The translations under genes and the position numbers were made by a program. 35,227 bases of DNA from Candidatus Faecousia faecigallinarum (GTDB taxonomy: Bacteria > Bacillota > Clostridia > Oscillospirales > Oscillospiraceae), in contig DVHJ01000013.1 of the NCBI GenBank assembly GCA_018712145.1, forward strand, positions 1-35,227, given 5' to 3'. Below are positions 14,056 through 24,971 of this stretch, piece by piece; position 1 is the stretch's first letter, and each line of letters begins with the position of its first letter. Below the pieces are notes generated by a model that was not told the origin of the DNA, made no database searches, and worked only from the letters and a program-made list of their open reading frames with translations.

Positions 14056-15162
14056 TCAAGTAGAGGAAGGCAGGCGAACGGGTAAAACCATATAGGAAAA
14101 ATCATCGTCTTCCGTGACTGGCGTAAGCACGATGGGGCTCAGTCCGTTTTTGAGTTCCAGACAAACCTCTTCTGTGGGTACGGCCCGGAGAGCATCTGCT
14201 AGATACCGGCAGTTAAAGCCGATTTCCAGTTCTTCCCCATTGCCGGCAATGGCGCACTGATCCTCGGCAGCGCCAATGGTGGTCACTGTGCGAAACACCA
14301 CTTCATTTTCCTTAAACAGACAACGCATGGGGCTTTTTACCTTTTCCATCACCATTAGGCCAACCCGGTCTACGCTGGAGGCCAGGTCTGCTACATTGGC
14401 AGTAAGCCGGATAGGACTGTCCTGGGGAACCACTTTCCGCCAGTCCAAAAAATCCCCTTCCAATAAACGGCAAATTAAAACAGCGTTACCCATAGAAAAC
14501 AGAATGTGCTTCGGCCCTAATGTGAATGTGACGTCTCCATCATCAGTTAGAATTTTTTCCACTTCCTTCAAAGCAACGGCTGGCACCACAAAATGCATTG
14601 GCGTCATCTGCCCTTCCGGCCGGTAGGACCGGCGAGCCAGGCGGAAGCCATCCACCGCCACCACAGAAAACCGGTTTTCCTCCACTTCAAACAGGCATCC
14701 GGTAAATACCGGCCGGTTTTGATTTTCCGCAACAGCAAAAATCACACCGCCGATCATTTCCCGGAGTTTGCTTTGGGGCATGGTGACACTATTCCGGTTT
14801 TCCACATCCGGCAGCTCTGGATAATCCTCGGCGCTCAGGGCGGAAATGGTGAACTTTGCCCGGCCGGCTTTAATGGTTACTTTATAGTTTTCATCCACGT
14901 CCATGGAGACCGGCCCTTCCGGCAATCGCCGGACAATGTCGGCAATCAGTTTGGCTGGCATGACGCACTGGCCTGTGCGGGAAATATCCGCCTCTGTAGA
15001 GACGGTGATAGCAGTTTCCAGGTTAAATCCAGTGAGCTGGAGGCTGTTTCCTGCCTGGAACAGAACACCTTCAATGGCAGGTAGGGGACTTTTCGCCGCT
15101 ACCGTGCGGCTGGCAACAGAAATGGCAGAAAACAGGGCGCTTTTTTCACAGGTAAACTTCAC
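14056..15162 (-). CDS. dnaN: DNA polymerase III beta sliding clamp
   Basis: A 368-residue beta clamp that tethers DNA polymerase III to the template. It has the three repeated clamp domains, with the typical N-terminus ([19 protein letters not shown]) and the C-terminal PVRL motif. The start is GTG at 15162 with a very strong ribosome site (AAGGAGGAGA). It follows dnaA across a 265-base gap holding the putative origin. It is probably co-transcribed with dnaA and the downstream genes, since I saw no convincing separate promoter. Confidence 0.96.
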
Positions 15163-15191
15163 AGAATCTCCTCCTTCGTGAAAAAAATGTC

Positions 15192-15404
15192 ATCTATAGA
15201 TAAACAGGGAGATATATAGGTAGTCGTAATAGCAGTAGAAGGCTGTTTGTGTGGAAATCCCGGGAAAGCCTTTGAAAATCAGCCATGATTTTTCCACAGG
15301 CAAAGGTGGAAGAATTTTGAAATTTCCACAGGGTTTGGGAAAGAAAAAATGATATACGGTTTTCCACAGGCAGTTTTTCCGCAGATGAGCAATCCTGTGG
15401 AAAT
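15192..15404. other. Putative origin of replication (oriC) between dnaA and dnaN
   Basis: Five DnaA-box-like 9-mers occur in the gap, each with one or two differences from TTATCCACA: TTTTCCACA at 15290-15298 and 15360-15368, ATTTCCACA at 15322-15330, and the inverted ATTTCCACA at 15250-15258 and 15396-15404. From the box at 15250-15258 toward dnaN there is a GC-containing spacer (15239-15249). Then comes a run of triplets TAG TCG TAA TAG CAG TAG (15221-15238), read 3' to 5' as DnaA-trios away from the box. An AT-rich tract follows (15192-15220) with the palindrome ATCTATAGAT. This order matches the basal unwinding system known from Bacillus subtilis. Confidence 0.85.
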
Positions 15405-15427
15405 ATTTTGCCGGAAAAAAATACGCC

Positions 15428-16741
15428 TTACAGCGAAGAGTTGATGTTGGCAGTAATGTCCCGTACTGTGGCAATCAGCGGAGAAGAGGGATTTTTCAGG
15501 TGGGTTTCCACCTTTCGGATAGAGTGGAGGACGGTAGAGTGATCCCGGCCAAATTCCCGGCCGATTTCCGGTAGGGATAGGTTGGTGAGCTGGCGGATCA
15601 GGTACATGGCCACCTGCCTGGCTTCTGCTGTGCCCTTGTTTTTCAGGGTGCCCCGGAGGACGGACTCATCGATGGAGTAAAACCGGCTGACTTGGTTAAT
15701 AATCAGCGAGGGCGTGGGAACGGCGTTTCCTTCTACTTTGAACATGTCGCTGATGGCCCGGGATACGTTGGGTAGGTCCAAGGGCATGTCGTTTAAGTCA
15801 CGGTAAGCCAGAATCTTTTTGACGGTGCCCTCAATTTGCCGCACGTTGTTGGTGATGTTGTTGGCAATGTAATCGCAAATATCGTCAGATAAATCCAGGC
15901 CCAAAGAAATAGCCTTATTTTTTAAGATAGCCATTCTGGTTTCATAATCCGGTGGCTGAATGTCCGCCAGTAGGCCCCATTCAAACCGGGTGCGCAGCCG
16001 GTCTTCCAGGGTGAGCATATCGCTGGGCTTCCGGTCGGAGGTCATGACAATTTGCTTTCGCTCTTCATAGAGCTTGTTGAAGGTATGGAAAAATTCCTCC
16101 TGGGTACTGTCCTTACCGGCAATGAATTGGATATCGTCGATGAGGAACAAGTCGGCTTCCCGGTATTTGCTCCGAAATTCCACATTTTTGCCGCTTTGCA
16201 AGGCGGCAATCAACTCATTGGTGAACTGGTCGCCCTTGATATAGACGATCTGAAAATTGGGGTGCTGCCGCCGCAGTTCGTTGGCGATCGCATACAGCAG
16301 GTGGGTTTTTCCCACGCCGGCCGGGCCGTGGATAAACAGGGGATTATACACCTGCCCGGGATTGTTGGCTACTGCAATGGCTGCCGAGTGGGCAAACCGG
16401 TTAGACGAGCCAACGACGAAATTGGAAAAGGTGAACTGAGGATTAAAGTCCATGACCGTGTTGGGCTTATCCCGGGATTTGTATTCTGCCAATTCCTCCG
16501 GCCCAAAGACAACCAACTCCACATCTGTGTGAAAAATTTCTTGCATGGCTTCCCGGATATAACCGGTGCAACGTTTTTGGATAATATCCTTGCGGAATGG
16601 GGAAGCGGTATACAAAATCAACTGTTCCTCGTTTAACTCCACTACCTCCGCATCGTCAAACCAAGTGGAAACCACGGCAGGGGTCAGGCGGTTTTCCATG
16701 TGACTGAGCACCTTGGCCCAGACGTAGGCAGATGAAATCAT
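15428..16741 (-). CDS. dnaA: Chromosomal replication initiator DnaA
   Basis: A 437-residue initiator with the four DnaA domains. Domain I is an N-terminal helicase-loading domain, the linker is short, and domain III is AAA+ with Walker A GPAGVGKT (139-146) and Walker B LFLIDD (198-203). The C-terminal helix-turn-helix carries the DnaA signature GRDHSTVLHS. The ATG at 16741 follows GAGGAG at a good distance. The protein probably binds the boxes just downstream of its own gene to open the origin. A sigma-A-type promoter lies about 65 bases upstream. Confidence 0.97.
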   Translation of the reverse strand: MISSAYVWAKVLSHMENRLTPAVVSTWFDDAEVVELNEEQLILYTASPFRKDIIQKRCTGYIREAMQEIFHTDVELVVFGPEELAEYKSRDKPNTVMDFNPQFTFSNFVVGSSNRFAHSAAIAVANNPGQVYNPLFIHGPAGVGKTHLLYAIANELRRQHPNFQIVYIKGDQFTNELIAALQSGKNVEFRSKYREADLFLIDDIQFIAGKDSTQEEFFHTFNKLYEERKQIVMTSDRKPSDMLTLEDRLRTRFEWGLLADIQPPDYETRMAILKNKAISLGLDLSDDICDYIANNITNNVRQIEGTVKKILAYRDLNDMPLDLPNVSRAISDMFKVEGNAVPTPSLIINQVSRFYSIDESVLRGTLKNKGTAEARQVAMYLIRQLTNLSLPEIGREFGRDHSTVLHSIRKVETHLKNPSSPLIATVRDITANINSSL

Positions 16742-16959: not shown

Positions 16960-16965
16960 TATAAT
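16960..16965 (+). promoter_or_regulatory. ylmH: Probable -10 element for ylmH
   Basis: A consensus TATAAT lies 41 bases before the chosen ylmH start. No good -35 is found at 16-18 bases. Two small palindromes lie just upstream (GGCATTTGCC at 16939-16948 and CCGGAATTTTCGG at 16947-16959), so activator or repressor control is possible. The first in-frame ATG (16964) lies inside this element. Confidence 0.4.
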
Positions 16966-17005
16966 GAAAAAAGTATTGCCACAGATTGGTCGGGAGGGTA
17001 AGTTA

Positions 17006-17788
17006 ATGCAGGATAAACGCCGCTTGGAATCCCTGGCGCAAACGCCGGAAGACCGGATTTTGTTGGCCAGGGTATGGGAACGGTTAACCATGGGCATGCA
17101 GCGGAATATTCCGGCATATACCGCCTTTTTGTCTCCCAGGGAGCAGGCGTTGACCCGGCAGCTCATGGGCCAGTGCCGGTTTTTTGGGGGATATGCCGGG
17201 GCAGAACGGGCCATTGCCTGTTACTTGCCGGATTATTTGGATGAGGACTGCTTGATGGAAGACGGACCGGTGGTCTGCCTGCGGGCAGAGTTTTATACCA
17301 GAGACAAGCTAAGTCATCGGGATTTTTTGGGCAGTCTTATGGGTGCGGGAATTAAGCGGGAAACCGTGGGCGATATCCTGGTGGGGCAGGGGAGATGCGA
17401 CTTTTTTCTTCTGGCGGAAATTGCCCCTTATGTAGAGCAAAATTTAGTGAGCGCCGGCCGTACGCACCTGCAGGTGTCCAGAATTCCCTTGGCTATGGCT
17501 GATCACGGAACGCCGGACGCAGTGACGGTACGGGATACGTTGGCTTCCTTACGCTTAGACAGCGTGGTAAGCGCTGGTTTTCGCATCAGCCGCACCGTGG
17601 CTGCCCGGCACATTGCCGCAGGTGCTGCAGCCATTGACGGCCTGCCTTGTGAGAAACCGGATAAAGGGGTAGAGCCAGGCAATGTGATCACGGTGCGGGG
17701 TTTGGGCAAGCTTAGGCTGACCAATGTTCAAGGCCAGAGCCGGAAGGGCAGGATTTGGGTGGAAATGGAACGATACGGAAGGAGATAG
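17006..17788 (+). CDS. ylmH: YlmH/RqcP2-like S4-domain RNA-binding protein
   Basis: A 260-residue protein with the YlmH layout: an N-terminal helical region, a central domain (YTRDKLSHRDFLGSLMGAGI, then VGDILV) and a C-terminal S4 RNA-binding domain (about 175-245, VSAGFRISRTVAARHI). YlmH binds 50S-peptidyl-tRNA complexes and acts in ribosome-associated quality control in Bacillus. The start at 17006 is chosen because GGGAGGG lies upstream; the in-frame ATG at 16964 is part of the -10 element. Elsewhere ylmH usually sits in the division cluster near sepF and divIVA, so its place beside dnaA is unusual. It is followed after four bases by a DUF896 gene. Confidence 0.9.
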   Translation: MQDKRRLESLAQTPEDRILLARVWERLTMGMQRNIPAYTAFLSPREQALTRQLMGQCRFFGGYAGAERAIACYLPDYLDEDCLMEDGPVVCLRAEFYTRDKLSHRDFLGSLMGAGIKRETVGDILVGQGRCDFFLLAEIAPYVEQNLVSAGRTHLQVSRIPLAMADHGTPDAVTVRDTLASLRLDSVVSAGFRISRTVAARHIAAGAAAIDGLPCEKPDKGVEPGNVITVRGLGKLRLTNVQGQSRKGRIWVEMERYGRR

Positions 17789-19337: not shown

Positions 19338-20177
19338 TTAACTTACCGGCCGTTTTTCCGGTTTTAACGCCGGACCGTCGTCGGCCTTGGTCAGATGGGA
19401 ATCGGAAATCAAGCCTCGAGGACAGGCTTGGACACACAGGCCGCAGTCGTCGCACAGGTCGTAGTTAATCCGGGCCAAGTTTTGTTTCACCTGAATTGCC
19501 CCCTTGGGGCAGATTTTTTCGCATTTAAAGCAGCCGATGCAGCCGATGTCGCAGCCCCGCAAGGTAACGGAGCCTCGGGCATTGGAGGCGCAGGCTACGG
19601 TGATGTTTTTGCCGAAATGGACCGGGACAATCAAGCCCCGGGGACAGGCGGCGGCGCAGCTCATGCAGCCGGTGCACTTATCCGCATCCACTTTGGCCAC
19701 CCCGTTTTCCAGGTGGATGGCGTCAAATTTGCAGGCTTTTGTACAGTTGCCAAAGCCAAGGCAGCCGAATTTGCAGATCAGCGGACCCCGTCCGGCCACC
19801 TTGGTGGCCGCCACACAGTCGGCAATGCCTTCATATTCCCCTTTATTTCTGGCGGTGGTACCGGCACAGCGGACAAAGGCCACCTGCCGGGCCACCTTTT
19901 GGGCCCGGACTCCCATGATGTTTGCCATGCCTTGGGCGCATTCGTCTCCGCCGGCAATACACAAACCCACGGGAACTTTGCCGTCCAGCACTGCTTGGGC
20001 ATAGGCGGCGCAGCCGGAAAAACCGCAGCCGCCGCAGTTTGCCCCGGGCAGGCACTGGATCAAGGCGTCTAATCTTGGGTCTGTTTCCACGTGAAACACC
20101 CGGTCTGCCAGGGTCAAAATCAGACCAAACAGAGCGCCTAAGCCCCCCAATACCCCAATGGCAATGAGAATTTCCAT
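19338..20177 (-). CDS. rnfB: Rnf complex subunit RnfB
   Basis: A 279-residue iron-sulfur subunit of the Rnf complex, thought to be the entry point for electrons from ferredoxin. One N-terminal membrane helix (about 3-25) precedes a Fe-S domain with Cys48, Cys51 and Cys56 (ANCGGCGFSGC). Further cysteine motifs of the 4Fe-4S ferredoxin type follow (CTGCMSCAAACP, CIGCFKCEKICP, CDDCGLCVQACP). It is the last gene of the operon, 12 bases after rnfA, and is followed by a terminator. A degenerate parS-like sequence lies inside the gene near 20082. Confidence 0.95.
   Translation of the reverse strand: MEILIAIGVLGGLGALFGLILTLADRVFHVETDPRLDALIQCLPGANCGGCGFSGCAAYAQAVLDGKVPVGLCIAGGDECAQGMANIMGVRAQKVARQVAFVRCAGTTARNKGEYEGIADCVAATKVAGRGPLICKFGCLGFGNCTKACKFDAIHLENGVAKVDADKCTGCMSCAAACPRGLIVPVHFGKNITVACASNARGSVTLRGCDIGCIGCFKCEKICPKGAIQVKQNLARINYDLCDDCGLCVQACPRGLISDSHLTKADDGPALKPEKRPVS
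20082..20098. promoter_or_regulatory. Degenerate parS-like sequence inside rnfB
   Basis: TGTTTCCACGTGAAACA equals the 16-base parS consensus with one extra C, which shifts the left half-site by a base. It lies inside the rnfB coding sequence. With the perfect parS 15 kb away it could be a weak ParB site or a chance match. Confidence 0.35.
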
Positions 20178-20189
20178 GTCCCCGCCTCC

Positions 20190-20777
20190 TTAAAACACGT
20201 TCAGCCCGTTAAAGCCCATAAAGGCCAAGGCCAGTAAACCGGCGGAAATTAACGCAATGGGGAACCCCTTAAAGCACTCCGGACACTCCGCTTCCTCCAC
20301 CCGCTGGCGAACCGAGGAAAACAGGACGATGGCCAGGGTAAAGCCCAGCCCGCCGGTAAAGCCATAAACCAGGGACTCCAGCAGGTTATACCCCTCCTGA
20401 ATATTCAGCAGGGCCACGCCCAACACGGCGCAGTTGGTGGTGATGAGAGGCAGGTAGATCCCCAGGGCCTGGTACAGGGCAGGCACGCTTTTCTTCAAAA
20501 ACATCTCCACCACCTGGACAATGGCGGCGATGATGAGAATGAAGGCAGCAGTCTGCATATAGGCCAGGTCTAGGGGGGTAAGAATCCAGTGATCCACCGC
20601 CCAAGTGGCCAGGGAGGCCACGGTCATCACAAAGGTCACGGCAATACCCATGCCGATGGCGGTGTCCGTCTTTTTCGATACGCCCATAAAGGGGCAGATG
20701 CCCATAAATTTCACCAAGATAAAGTTATTGGTGAGAATTGCCCCCAAGGCGATGGCCAAAATGCTGGTGACGCTCAT
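20190..20777 (-). CDS. rnfA: Rnf complex subunit RnfA
   Basis: A 195-residue integral membrane protein with about six helices and the conserved [11 protein letters not shown] and [16 protein letters not shown] segments of RnfA/NqrE. With RnfE it forms the membrane core that holds a Fe-S centre and contributes to the ion channel. The start overlaps the rnfE stop by four bases (ATGA). Length is normal. Confidence 0.95.
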
Positions 20778-21439
20778 TTGGGCAGGGCCTCCTTTCTCTT
20801 CTTCGCAGTTTTCTCCCGCTGGCGGTTATCCAGCCATTTGGTGAGCCACTGGGCAAAGGCAATCAGGCAGCCCAGGGTTAAAAATCCGCCGAAGGGGAGG
20901 ATCAGCAGCATGGCCGGGTATTGCTCCGGCAGAATCCGAATGCCCTGACCCCCGTTGAGCAGCCCTGCGCCAAAGGTGCCGCTGCCCAGCAATTCCCGCA
21001 CCAGGCACATAATCACCAGGGCGGCGGTATAGCCCAAGCCCTGGGTTAGGCCGTCTACCGCAGAGGCCAGCACCCCATGTTTGGAGGCGAAGGCCTCCGC
21101 CCGGCCCAAGATGATACAGTTCACCACAATCAGGGGAATGAACACCCCTAAACTGTTGGACAAATCCGGCAGGAAGGCTTGCAACAGCAGATCCACCATG
21201 GTGACAAATCCGGCAATGATCACCACATAGGCGGCAATGCGGATGCTGCCGGGAATGACTTTCCGCAGTAGGGAGATCAGCACATTGGAGCAGATCAGGA
21301 TAATGGTTACCGAAAGCCCCATCCCCAGGCCATTAAACAACGTGGTGGTAATGGCCATGGTAGAGCACATGCCCAATAGCTGCACCAGCACCGGGTTTTT
21401 GGTGAGCAGGCCCTCTTTCAACTGTTTTTTAAAGTTCAT
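20774..21439 (-). CDS. rnfE: Rnf complex subunit RnfE
   Basis: A 221-residue integral membrane protein related to RnfA, with inverted topology in this family. [18 protein letters not shown] is the diagnostic segment, and an early [13 protein letters not shown] helix carries the conserved Cys. It overlaps rnfG and rnfA by four bases each, so translation along the operon is coupled. The C-terminus is lysine-rich. Confidence 0.95.
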
Positions 21440-21984
21440 GCTCCACTGCCTCCTTCCAGGGCGGCGGCACAGGCTAGGGCGGCGTTCACCCCACGGGTAA
21501 TTGCCCGGGAGGTGACGGTAGCCCCGGTGAGCGCCTCAATGGTTCCCCCGTCTTTGGTGACGGCGGCGGGTTCCGTCAGGCCCACAAACTGCTCCCGGAA
21601 CTCCGGCCGCTCCGCATTGGCGCCTAAGTTGCTGGTTTCGCTGTGGCTGATGAGCTCCACGCCGGTGACGCTGCCTGTGCTGCTGACGCCTACCGCCATA
21701 TCGATATCCCCGCCGTAACCGGCGGTGGTGACCAGCATCACATACCCGTCAGAAGTAGCATATACCCCGGTAATCAACCCGGTTTCATCGGGAAATGCGT
21801 CCAAGGCCTGCCCCAAGGTCACCCCATCGGCCAGCACACCGGCCAGGGCCTGTTGGGTTTTTTCCGCCTGATATTGGGCAATTGGCTTTTCCGTAATGGA
21901 ATTTACCGCCGCCAATAATCCCGCCATGACCACGGTGATCAGCAGCAGGGTAACAACAGCCCGAAGGCCGCTTTGCTTGTTCAT
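21436..21984 (-). CDS. rnfG: Rnf complex subunit RnfG (covalent FMN)
   Basis: A 182-residue protein with one N-terminal membrane helix (about 8-28) and an outward FMN-binding domain. The motif TGATVTS places the covalent flavin on Thr156. RnfG carries electrons between RnfD and the Fe-S centres. It overlaps rnfD and rnfE by four bases. The Ala/Gly-rich tail ends soon after the flavin motif, as is usual. Confidence 0.94.
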   Translation of the reverse strand: MNKQSGLRAVVTLLLITVVMAGLLAAVNSITEKPIAQYQAEKTQQALAGVLADGVTLGQALDAFPDETGLITGVYATSDGYVMLVTTAGYGGDIDMAVGVSSTGSVTGVELISHSETSNLGANAERPEFREQFVGLTEPAAVTKDGGTIEALTGATVTSRAITRGVNAALACAAALEGGSGA

Positions 21985-22979
21985 TTGCCTCCCTCCTTTT
22001 TCTCAACACCGAAGCGCTTTGGCCGGCCAACACGATCCAGGAGAACGACGCAAAGGTTCATCACCAAAATGGCGTAGCTGACCCCTTCCGCATAGGCGCC
22101 AAAATAGCGGATAAACACGGTGATTGCCCCGCAGCCTATGCCAAATAGAATTTTTCCCCAGCCGGTAACCGGAGAAGTGACATAGTCTGTGGCCATGAAC
22201 CAGGCGCCCAGCATCAGTCCACCGGACAGCAGCTGATACCCCATCCAGGGTAAGCGGTCGTTGCCCTGGGGGAACAGGAAGGTGAGAATGGCCACGGTGC
22301 CCAAAAAGGCCAGGGGAATCCGGAGGCTGATGATCCGCCGGATCACTAAGTACAGCCCGCCAATCAGGAGCAGCAAAGCAGAAATTTCCCCCATAGACCC
22401 GGCGGTTTTCCCCAAAAACAGGTCTAGAAGACTCTCCGCCGGCAGCTGGCCGGTGTGCAGGCTGTTTAGGGGGGTAGCGGAGGTCACCGCGTCGGCGGCG
22501 CTGATGATCCCCGGCTTTGTCCAGGGGGCGGCCCAGGTGGTCATGTCCACCGGCCAGGAGAACAGGAAAGCCCTGGCGGCCAGGGCGGGATTTACAAAGT
22601 TTTTTCCAATTCCGCCGAACAACTGCTTCACCACCACAATGGCAAAAAAGTCTCCCACCAGGATGATCCAGTAGGGTATGGTCACCGGACAGGTCAGAGC
22701 CAGCAGTAGGCCAGTGACGGCGGCGGACAAATCCCCTACGGTGCAGTCCTGTTTTCGGATTTTCCGGAAGGCCCATTCAAAAAACACGCATCCCGCCACG
22801 GAAACCGCCGCTACCGTCAGCGCCCGGAAGCCAAAGACAATCACCGCCCACACCAGGGCAGGCAATAAGGCCAGCAGAACATTGCCCATGATTTTCCAGG
22901 TGCGGCTGGGGCTGTGGATGTGGGGAGAGCTGGCTACCGTCAGCTCGTAGAAATATTTGACTTTTCCCGGCATATTCAT
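21981..22979 (-). CDS. rnfD: Rnf complex subunit RnfD (covalent FMN)
   Basis: A 332-residue integral membrane subunit with about eight to ten helices. The flavin motif TSATPL places covalent FMN on Thr169, where the usual form is SGATPL, so a Ser replaces the Gly. It is thought to couple electron flow to Na+ or H+ movement. It starts seven bases after rnfC and overlaps rnfG by four bases. Confidence 0.94.
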   Translation of the reverse strand: MNMPGKVKYFYELTVASSPHIHSPSRTWKIMGNVLLALLPALVWAVIVFGFRALTVAAVSVAGCVFFEWAFRKIRKQDCTVGDLSAAVTGLLLALTCPVTIPYWIILVGDFFAIVVVKQLFGGIGKNFVNPALAARAFLFSWPVDMTTWAAPWTKPGIISAADAVTSATPLNSLHTGQLPAESLLDLFLGKTAGSMGEISALLLLIGGLYLVIRRIISLRIPLAFLGTVAILTFLFPQGNDRLPWMGYQLLSGGLMLGAWFMATDYVTSPVTGWGKILFGIGCGAITVFIRYFGAYAEGVSYAILVMNLCVVLLDRVGRPKRFGVEKKEGGK

Positions 22980-22986
22980 CGCCTCC

Positions 22987-24282
22987 TTAGGATTTCACCT
23001 TCTGCTTGCCGGTGCGGATGCTGTGCACCAGGGGCAGGCAGCCGGGGCAGGTGTAGGCGCAGCAGCCGCACTCAATGCAGTCGGTGACGTGGAATTCTGC
23101 CAATGCGGCCAAGTCATTGCGCCGCTCGGCGCTGTAGAGCTTCAAGGGCATCAGATGCATGGGACAGACCTGGATGCACCGGCCACAGCGAATACAGTGG
23201 GGTGTTTTGGCAAAATAGCGGTTTTTGTCACCCAAGATGGTCACAGCATTCACGCCTTTGATCACCGGCGCAGATAGGTCAAACTGAGCAAGGCCCATCA
23301 TCGGCCCACCGGAGAGAACCTTGTAGGGATTTTGCCGGAATCCGGCGGCGTCCACCATGTCGGAAAAGCTGGTGCCTAGGGGAACCAGCAGATTTCTCGG
23401 CTCCATGGCAATGTCTCCGGATACGGTAACCACCCGCTGCACCAGGGGCATCCCATCCCACACCGCGTCGCCAACGGCGGCGCAGGTGGCGGCGTTAAAC
23501 ACGGCGCAGCCTACCTGGGCGGGCAATCCGCCTGGGGGCACTTGTCGTCCGGTGATGGTTTGGATGAGCTGTTTTTCCGCCCCCTGGGGGTAACGGGTCT
23601 TCAGCAGCTTCAGGCAGACGCTGGGATAATCGGCCATAACCTCCAGCAGGGCATTGGCGGCATTTGGCTTGTTGTCCTCCATGGCCACGGTGACCATGGG
23701 CAAATCCAGAATTTGCATCAGCACCACAGCGCCCCGGAGAACCCGGCGGGGATGCTCCACAATCAGCCGTTCATCCGCGGTAATGTATGGCTCGCATTCT
23801 GCGGCGTTGATGATCAGGGTATCCACCTTGCCCATGGCGGAGGTGAGCTTCACATGGGTGGGGAAGGCAGCGCCCCCCATGCCCACAATGCCGGCCTGGC
23901 GAATGATGTCCACCAAAGCTTCCCGGCTCAAGCCGTTTAAGGTACGCCTGGGCTGGATTTCCCGCCAAAGAGTATTCTGAAAGTCGTTTTCAATGACCAC
24001 CGACAGTACGGTAGTGCCATTGGGATGGGGTCTGGCCTCCACGGCTTTTACCGTGCCGGATACTGATGCATGCACCGGGGCGCAGAGCCCCTGGCCATCG
24101 CCTACAGGCTGCCCAATATCCACGTGATCCCCTTTGGCCACTAAGGGAGTGCAAGCAGCTCCGATGTGCTGCACCATGGGAATCACCACCTGAGCCGGCG
24201 GCGGAAAGGGGGTAATGGCATGATCCCTGGCCAGGGCTTTCTGATCCCTGGGGTGGATACCGCCGAAAAATGAAGCTGTCAA
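22987..24282 (-). CDS. rnfC: Rnf complex subunit RnfC
   Basis: A 431-residue peripheral subunit and the NADH/NAD+ site of the complex. It contains the nucleotide/FMN-binding region (GIVGMGGAAFPTHVK, then INAAECEPYITAD) and two C-terminal 4Fe-4S motifs (CIRCGRCIQVCP, CIECGCCAYTCP). The start is taken as TTG at 24282 because AGAGGTGAT lies at the right distance and the product then begins MTASFFGGIHPRD, like other RnfC proteins. A frame opening further up at 24327 would run through the hairpin. It is the first gene of rnfCDGEAB. Confidence 0.93.
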   Translation of the reverse strand: MTASFFGGIHPRDQKALARDHAITPFPPPAQVVIPMVQHIGAACTPLVAKGDHVDIGQPVGDGQGLCAPVHASVSGTVKAVEARPHPNGTTVLSVVIENDFQNTLWREIQPRRTLNGLSREALVDIIRQAGIVGMGGAAFPTHVKLTSAMGKVDTLIINAAECEPYITADERLIVEHPRRVLRGAVVLMQILDLPMVTVAMEDNKPNAANALLEVMADYPSVCLKLLKTRYPQGAEKQLIQTITGRQVPPGGLPAQVGCAVFNAATCAAVGDAVWDGMPLVQRVVTVSGDIAMEPRNLLVPLGTSFSDMVDAAGFRQNPYKVLSGGPMMGLAQFDLSAPVIKGVNAVTILGDKNRYFAKTPHCIRCGRCIQVCPMHLMPLKLYSAERRNDLAALAEFHVTDCIECGCCAYTCPGCLPLVHSIRTGKQKVKS

Positions 24283-24299
24283 GGGGATCACCTCTGCTG

Positions 24300-24342
24300 A
24301 AAAAATGAAAAAGCGCAGCCGGAACAACTCCGGTTACGCTTT
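24300..24342 (-). terminator. Intrinsic terminator overlapping the rnf start site
   Basis: On the minus strand, outer arms AAAGCG (24337-24342) and CGCTTT (24310-24315) and inner arms CCGGA and TCCGG are followed by TTTTTCATTTTTT. It probably ends the GNAT transcript. The rnf promoter sits directly upstream, so the outer left arm lies at the rnf transcription start. Confidence 0.65.
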
Positions 24343-24343
24343 C

Positions 24344-24372
24344 ACTATACCGCGTTTATGCAGCTTTGTCCA
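24344..24372 (-). promoter_or_regulatory. Sigma-A promoter of the rnf operon
   Basis: -35 TGGACA (24367-24372), a 17-base spacer and -10 TATAGT (24344-24349) on the minus strand. The predicted start is near 24337, about 55 bases before the TTG start of rnfC. Confidence 0.72.
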
Positions 24373-24449
24373 TGTTTTTTTCTTTGTTTTGGTAAAAAGT
24401 TGTGATTTATCGATAAATATGCAGGGAATATGAATGGAGAAAATCCGAT

Positions 24450-24971
24450 TTACCACGTCTGAGGAAACGCCTGGGGACAGCCGCCGCTGGCTAACGTCTT
24501 TTCCAGCCACACCACGCTGAGCCACCGGCCAAATTTCCAGCCGCACTGGGGAAACTCTGCCCTGGGGACAAAGCCCAGGGCTTGGTGAAAGGCGATGGAG
24601 GCCTGATTCTCTCCCGTCACCACCGCATAGAGCCGCCGGTAGCCCAGGCTGGAAAGCTCTTCCTCCAATGTGGTCATCAGCTGCCGGCCAATGCCCCGGC
24701 CCCGGGCCTGGGGCGCCAGATAAACCGAGGATTCGGCACACCAGCGGTAAGCGGCCCGGCTCCAGGGCAGGCCGGCGTAGGTATAGCCCAGCACCTGGCG
24801 GTTCTCCTCCCATACCAGCCAGGGCATGCCCCGATGTGCCTGAAACCGCTGGATAAATTCCGCCTGAGTGGGGACGGTATATTCAAAACTGACGGTGGTG
24901 TTTTCCACAAACGGACGGTAAATTTCCAACATTGCGGGAATGTCGGAGAGATTGGCAGGACGAATGGCCAT
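24450..24971 (-). CDS. GNAT N-acetyltransferase, phosphinothricin/methionine-sulfone type
   Basis: A 173-residue acetyltransferase. The N-terminus (IRPANLSDIPAMLEIYRPFVENTTVSFE) and the acetyl-CoA loop QARGRGIGRQL (88-98) match the Pat/Bar/YncA group, as does HQALGFVPRAEF. Members acetylate phosphinothricin, methionine sulfoximine or related amino acids; the true substrate here is unknown. AGGAGG lies seven bases before the ATG and a strong promoter lies upstream. The C-terminal GGCPQAFPQTW tail is not typical. Confidence 0.88.
   Translation of the reverse strand: MAIRPANLSDIPAMLEIYRPFVENTTVSFEYTVPTQAEFIQRFQAHRGMPWLVWEENRQVLGYTYAGLPWSRAAYRWCAESSVYLAPQARGRGIGRQLMTTLEEELSSLGYRRLYAVVTGENQASIAFHQALGFVPRAEFPQCGWKFGRWLSVVWLEKTLASGGCPQAFPQTW

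Follow-up and report, generated by a model that had tools for sequence, protein, structure and literature searches.

Evidence for a DnaA-trio unwinding site between dnaA and dnaN in Candidatus Faecousia faecigallinarum

The gap between dnaA and dnaN in Candidatus Faecousia faecigallinarum is very probably the chromosome origin, with positions 15190-15258 as its basal unwinding system (BUS); we give this reading a probability of about 93%. The DNA analyzed, hereafter the window, is the whole 35,227-nucleotide stretch of contig C72, one of the 97 contigs of a 1.9-Mb MAG. A preliminary description had already read the region as an oriC unwinding site built in the order of the Bacillus subtilis BUS, and this proposal is now supported by the conservation of the triplet register, by a local switch in GC skew, and by the skew found at a displaced origin module in one relative (genome G024). 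A BUS was to be expected here, since such systems are predicted in 85% of 2070 origins (PMC8287927). The device is thus a known one and the present case an ordinary further example; its additional features are the fixed geometry of the DnaA boxes and the displaced module.

Anatomy of the dnaA-dnaN gap

The window carries the usual minus-strand series of genes, comprising dnaA, dnaN, a gene for a yaaA-like S4 protein, recF, gyrB, and gyrA. The initiator gene dnaA (15428-16741, minus strand) was assigned the ATG at 16741 as start, and it shows a PF00308 match (E = 5.7e-69, at 15965-16444) and the domain IV signature GRDHSTVLH in its translation. The sliding clamp gene dnaN (14056-15162, minus strand) starts with GTG, its translation being 58-69% identical to dnaN from genomes of the same genus, and its ribosome-binding site AAGGAGGAG lies on the minus strand at 15168-15176. 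The gap between these two minus-strand genes covers 265 bp (15163-15427). Beyond this locus, an Rnf-type electron transport operon was observed at 19338-24327, about 3-7 kb from dnaA, and upstream of the Rnf genes an open frame of 159 amino acids (24334-24813) without a Pfam match.

The preliminary description had reported a DnaA-like box and, reading from it toward dnaN, an 11-base spacer and six triplets, five of them with a middle A; all of these elements were recovered at the coordinates that follow. The trio-proximal box occupies 15250-15258; it reads TGTGGAAAT on the plus strand and ATTTCCACA on the minus strand, on which it points at the trios. It has 1 mismatch to TTWTNCACA and 2 mismatches to the Escherichia coli consensus TTATCCACA. 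The spacer AAGGCTGTTTG (15239-15249, 11 nt) is followed by the DnaA-trios 5'-TAG TCG TAA TAG CAG TAG-3' on the plus strand (15221-15238), which read 3'-GAT GAC GAT AAT GCT GAT-5' from the box. The triplets TAA TAG CAG TAG are consecutive beside the spacer, and beyond them come TCG, the only triplet without a middle A, and then TAG. In the dnaA-to-dnaN orientation the whole arrangement is ATTTCCACA - CAAACAGCCTT - CTA CTG CTA TTA CGA CTA - CC TATATATC... The sequence could also be parsed with an 8-nt spacer, in which case the AAG at 15239-15241 would make a seventh triplet; we took the TAG at 15236-15238 as the first triplet because the corresponding CTA of the relatives is nearly invariant.

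In a stability scan of the gap, the 30-mer of lowest stability was 15190-15219, which begins 1 nt past the trios. Across the whole window its instability rank is 71 of 35198. This putative AT-rich unwinding tract includes the palindrome ATCTATAGAT (15192-15201). Both were present as the preliminary description had stated; among the same-genus gaps the AT-richness of the tract is conserved and the palindrome is not. As a single strand, the tract folded no better than shuffled sequences.

These features agree with the published BUS rule (PMC8287927), which asks for a box with at most two mismatches to TTATCCACA, trios 0-16 nt from the box, and at least three consecutive NAN triplets. The box here has exactly two mismatches, the distance is 11 nt (10-11 nt in the genus), and the run of four triplets next to the spacer all have the middle A. 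The gap site was also the best of 88 box-like sites with at most 1 mismatch on both strands of the whole window. Nevertheless, 17 of 2000 dinucleotide shuffles (about 0.9%) reached the box and trio score of the gap, so that in one sequence the combination is modestly beyond chance, and it is conservation that provides the strong evidence.

Conservation of the triplet register

We searched 36 same-genus and 23 same-order genomes with DnaA as query and defined the gap as the DNA from the dnaA stop to the dnaN start; 34 same-genus gaps, the window included, were compared. The preliminary description had called for such an alignment, and the triplet register proved to be conserved beside the box throughout the genus. 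A box, a spacer of 10-11 nt, trios in the same register, and then AT-rich DNA were found in 33 of the 34 gaps, the exception being G024, which has its module elsewhere; this conservation is a test additional to the published BUS rule. The spacer measures 10 nt in 30 of the 33 gaps and 11 nt in three, among them the window. The proximal box, whose genus form is TTTTCCACA, has a mean pairwise identity of 0.97 in the genus. On the dnaN-sense strand, the fraction of T at positions 1, 2, and 3 of the six triplets is 0.17, 0.86, and 0.07 over the 33 gaps. The first triplet is CTA in 32/33 and the sixth starts with CT in 33/33. At least four of the six middle positions are right in 32 of the 33 gaps vs. 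20% of random stretches from the same gaps, and all six are right in 13 of them vs. 0.4% of random stretches; the register was picked by score among five spacers, and the random null was allowed equal freedom. Also, the least stable 30-mer begins at most 18 nt from the end of the trios in 32/33 gaps, including the window. The window itself deviates from its genus in the box (ATTTCCACA) and in the fifth triplet (CGA), the latter being shared with one other species (L023). A strict search pattern ending in CTACC had no match in five genomes, the pattern being too narrow.

The shuffle result would leave room for the triplets being a chance run in AT-rich DNA near DnaA boxes. A register kept across 33 same-genus genomes already contradicts this explanation, to which we attach next to no probability.

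Elsewhere in the order, several families have a box, a second box, a short stretch, and CTA repeats, as is known for B. subtilis, and many order-level relatives agree with the BUS rule. No recognizable second box was seen between the main box and the trios in the window or in most of the genus; a tandem pair was visible in the relatives L040, L045, and L049. In L042, L048, and L052 the form with a box and CTA repeats was not clear in the gap. Some gaps (L015, L024, L018, L019, L042) were observed to be much larger, with 560-1526 bp and additional DNA.

Box geometry and a displaced module

Four further box-like sites on the dnaA side had been mentioned in the preliminary description; four boxes were retrieved there, at 15290, 15322, 15360, and 15396, together with a weak fifth. 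Offsets in the 33 same-genus members take the start of the proximal box as zero. In the window, plus-strand boxes, inverted with respect to the proximal box, occur at 15290-15298 (TTTTCCACA, offset -40), 15322-15330 (ATTTCCACA, -72), and 15360-15368 (TTTTCCACA, -110), and the weak box TTTTCCGCA (15375-15383, plus strand) occupies the conserved -125 slot. The outer box ATTTCCACA at 15396-15404 (minus strand, -146) is again in forward orientation. Throughout the genus, inverted boxes are located at -40 (exact in 28/33), -72/-73, -110/-111, -125/-126, and -132/-133, and the forward box at -146/-147. The inverted box at -40 is present also in L040, which belongs to another family. The spacing thus seems to be constrained rather than the DNA between the boxes, because this DNA has a mean identity of just 33-52% while the offsets hold; shared descent contributes as well.

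From -26 to -9 relative to the proximal box, and so between it and the -40 box, the genus gaps contain a partly conserved stretch, cGTTGnnnCnctAGGg, which is largely lost in the window and is possibly a site for another factor. The pattern TTG..CTaaG, written for a possible extra element between the -40 box and the proximal box, was matched in only 13/33 gaps, though the columns there are informative.

Upstream of dnaA, the exact sequence TTWTNCACA did not occur within 700 bp in the window and occurred 0-2 times in the relatives. The gene rpmH is found on another contig (C13), and a divergent gene for a ylmH-like RNA-binding protein (16964-17788) precedes dnaA, at the place where rpmH would stand. 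Within these 700 bp, the rpmH-linked group of DnaA boxes that marks bipartite origins is thus lacking. Because of this missing cluster and the location of rpmH, the origin looks one-sided as far as the sequence tells, unlike those of B. subtilis and Clostridioides difficile. Bipartite Firmicute origins have boxes on both sides of dnaA, with a second cluster upstream in C. difficile and B. subtilis (PMC7561715), and on this ground the gap could be taken for an accessory DnaA-box cluster, the true unwinding site lying elsewhere, for example upstream of dnaA. The scarcity of upstream boxes speaks against it, as do the top box and trio score of the window and the switch in skew, both of which fall in the gap; we consider such a displacement of the unwinding site highly improbable.

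Local GC skew is about -0.1 to the left of the gap and about +0.1 immediately to its right. The preliminary description had named GC skew as evidence that might have placed the origin elsewhere, and the sign changes at the dnaA-dnaN gap itself. A further case is G024, the genome whose DnaA is most similar to that of the window (80%) and which has single dnaA and dnaN matches. Its dnaA-dnaN gap (contig C7; L004 / L065) measures 91 bp, contains no boxes and no trios, and shows no flip in GC skew. A pattern search detected TTTCCACATAAATTTCTACTACTACTATTA on another contig, apart from dnaA and dnaN (G024:C37:11253-11282, L064). The boxes of this module stand at offsets 0, -41, -111, -133, and -147, and the skew is -0.116 before it and +0.234 after it. 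Its neighbors are a DUF3810 gene (beside rsmG) and a small-multidrug-export-like gene beside an RNA-methyltransferase gene. Contamination as the source of the split was not supported, as the tetranucleotide usage of C37 and C7 matches that of the other contigs of G024. Most simply, a rearrangement parted the origin from dnaA-dnaN in G024, misassembly being possible with MAG data.

The same genome bears on a further explanation, in which the conserved elements form a dnaN promoter/operator with autoregulatory DnaA boxes, the triplets and the TATA tract serving transcription. DnaA acts as a transcription regulator in addition to its role as initiator, and the AT-rich tract lies directly upstream of the dnaN ribosome-binding site. 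However, a consensus scan of 15100-15500 found no sigma-70-like promoter, and a promoter leaves the 3-base register unexplained. In G024, dnaN lacks all of these elements, which stand beside unrelated genes on the other contig; because the change of skew accompanies the displaced module and is missing at dnaA-dnaN, the module is better understood as a portable origin than as a dnaN promoter, and we regard the transcriptional reading as very unlikely.

Taken with the box offsets, the origin of the genus could be one-sided and portable, a unit with fixed geometry in which inverted boxes (-40, -72, -110, -125, -132) are held between the forward boxes 0 and -146. It would act as one phased DnaA assembly that lacks an upstream half, and in at least one species it would have been uncoupled intact from dnaA-dnaN. 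We put this broader proposal at even odds.

Comparison with known origins and predicted opening

The BUS of B. subtilis oriC (incC), with boxes 6/7 and trios (PMC6669920, PMC8287927, PMC10721633), shares with the window a box, a short spacer, 3'-GAT-5'-like triplets opposite the dnaN sense, and an AT-rich tract, in the same order between dnaA and dnaN. The window differs in that a single clear box, not a tandem pair, precedes the trios, that the other boxes are mostly inverted relative to the proximal one and stand at fixed offsets, and that one triplet is non-consensus. In C. difficile, melting was mapped in the dnaA-dnaN gap, and oriC1 at rpmH-dnaA was required in vitro (PMC7561715). Its oriC2 resembles the window in lying in that gap and in presenting a box cluster and trios, then the unwinding region; the C. 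difficile origin is bipartite (PMC7561715), whereas the window has no upstream cluster, the rpmH of this genome is on another contig, and the divergent ylmH-like gene stands before dnaA.

Opposite the trios, TnnT repeats on the minus strand (15221-15244, CTTCTACTGCTATTA) constitute a candidate DnaD recognition element under the rule of PMC10201434. Shared with the published element (PMC10201434) are at least two TnnT opposite the trios and a DnaD-like protein, encoded here by a 332-aa open frame with two DnaB_2 domains on contig C14; a difference is that the regular repeat is broken by the TCG triplet. The DnaD-like gene adjoins a match to a Bac_DnaA-family ATPase, which may be the helicase loader.

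The course of opening can be drawn by analogy with PMC6669920, PMC8287927, and PMC10721633; in this scheme the binding of DnaA, the direction of its filament, the melting, and the loading of the helicase are inferred. DnaA-ATP would bind the double-stranded box at 15250-15258, and DnaA on the inverted dnaA-side boxes, at their fixed distances, would assist this binding. A DnaA filament would then grow toward dnaN, engaging the plus strand one triplet at a time from 15238 down to 15221. This would melt the trios along with the AT-rich tract at 15190-15219, giving an opening of 15190-15238, and the freed minus strand with its TnnT repeats would receive a DnaD-type loader and the second helicase. 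Set against the main reading are the two mismatches of the box to the E. coli consensus, the TCG without a middle A, the shuffle level of about 0.9%, the lack of a clear second tandem box, and the one genus member without the module in its gap.

These data would place the unwinding site, the opened strand, and the direction of opening in a clostridial lineage that is largely uncultured. The conserved box spacing gives a testable prediction on the phasing of DnaA complexes in a one-sided Firmicute origin. Finally, G024 constitutes a natural experiment in which the origin module stands apart from dnaA-dnaN and the GC skew goes with the module.
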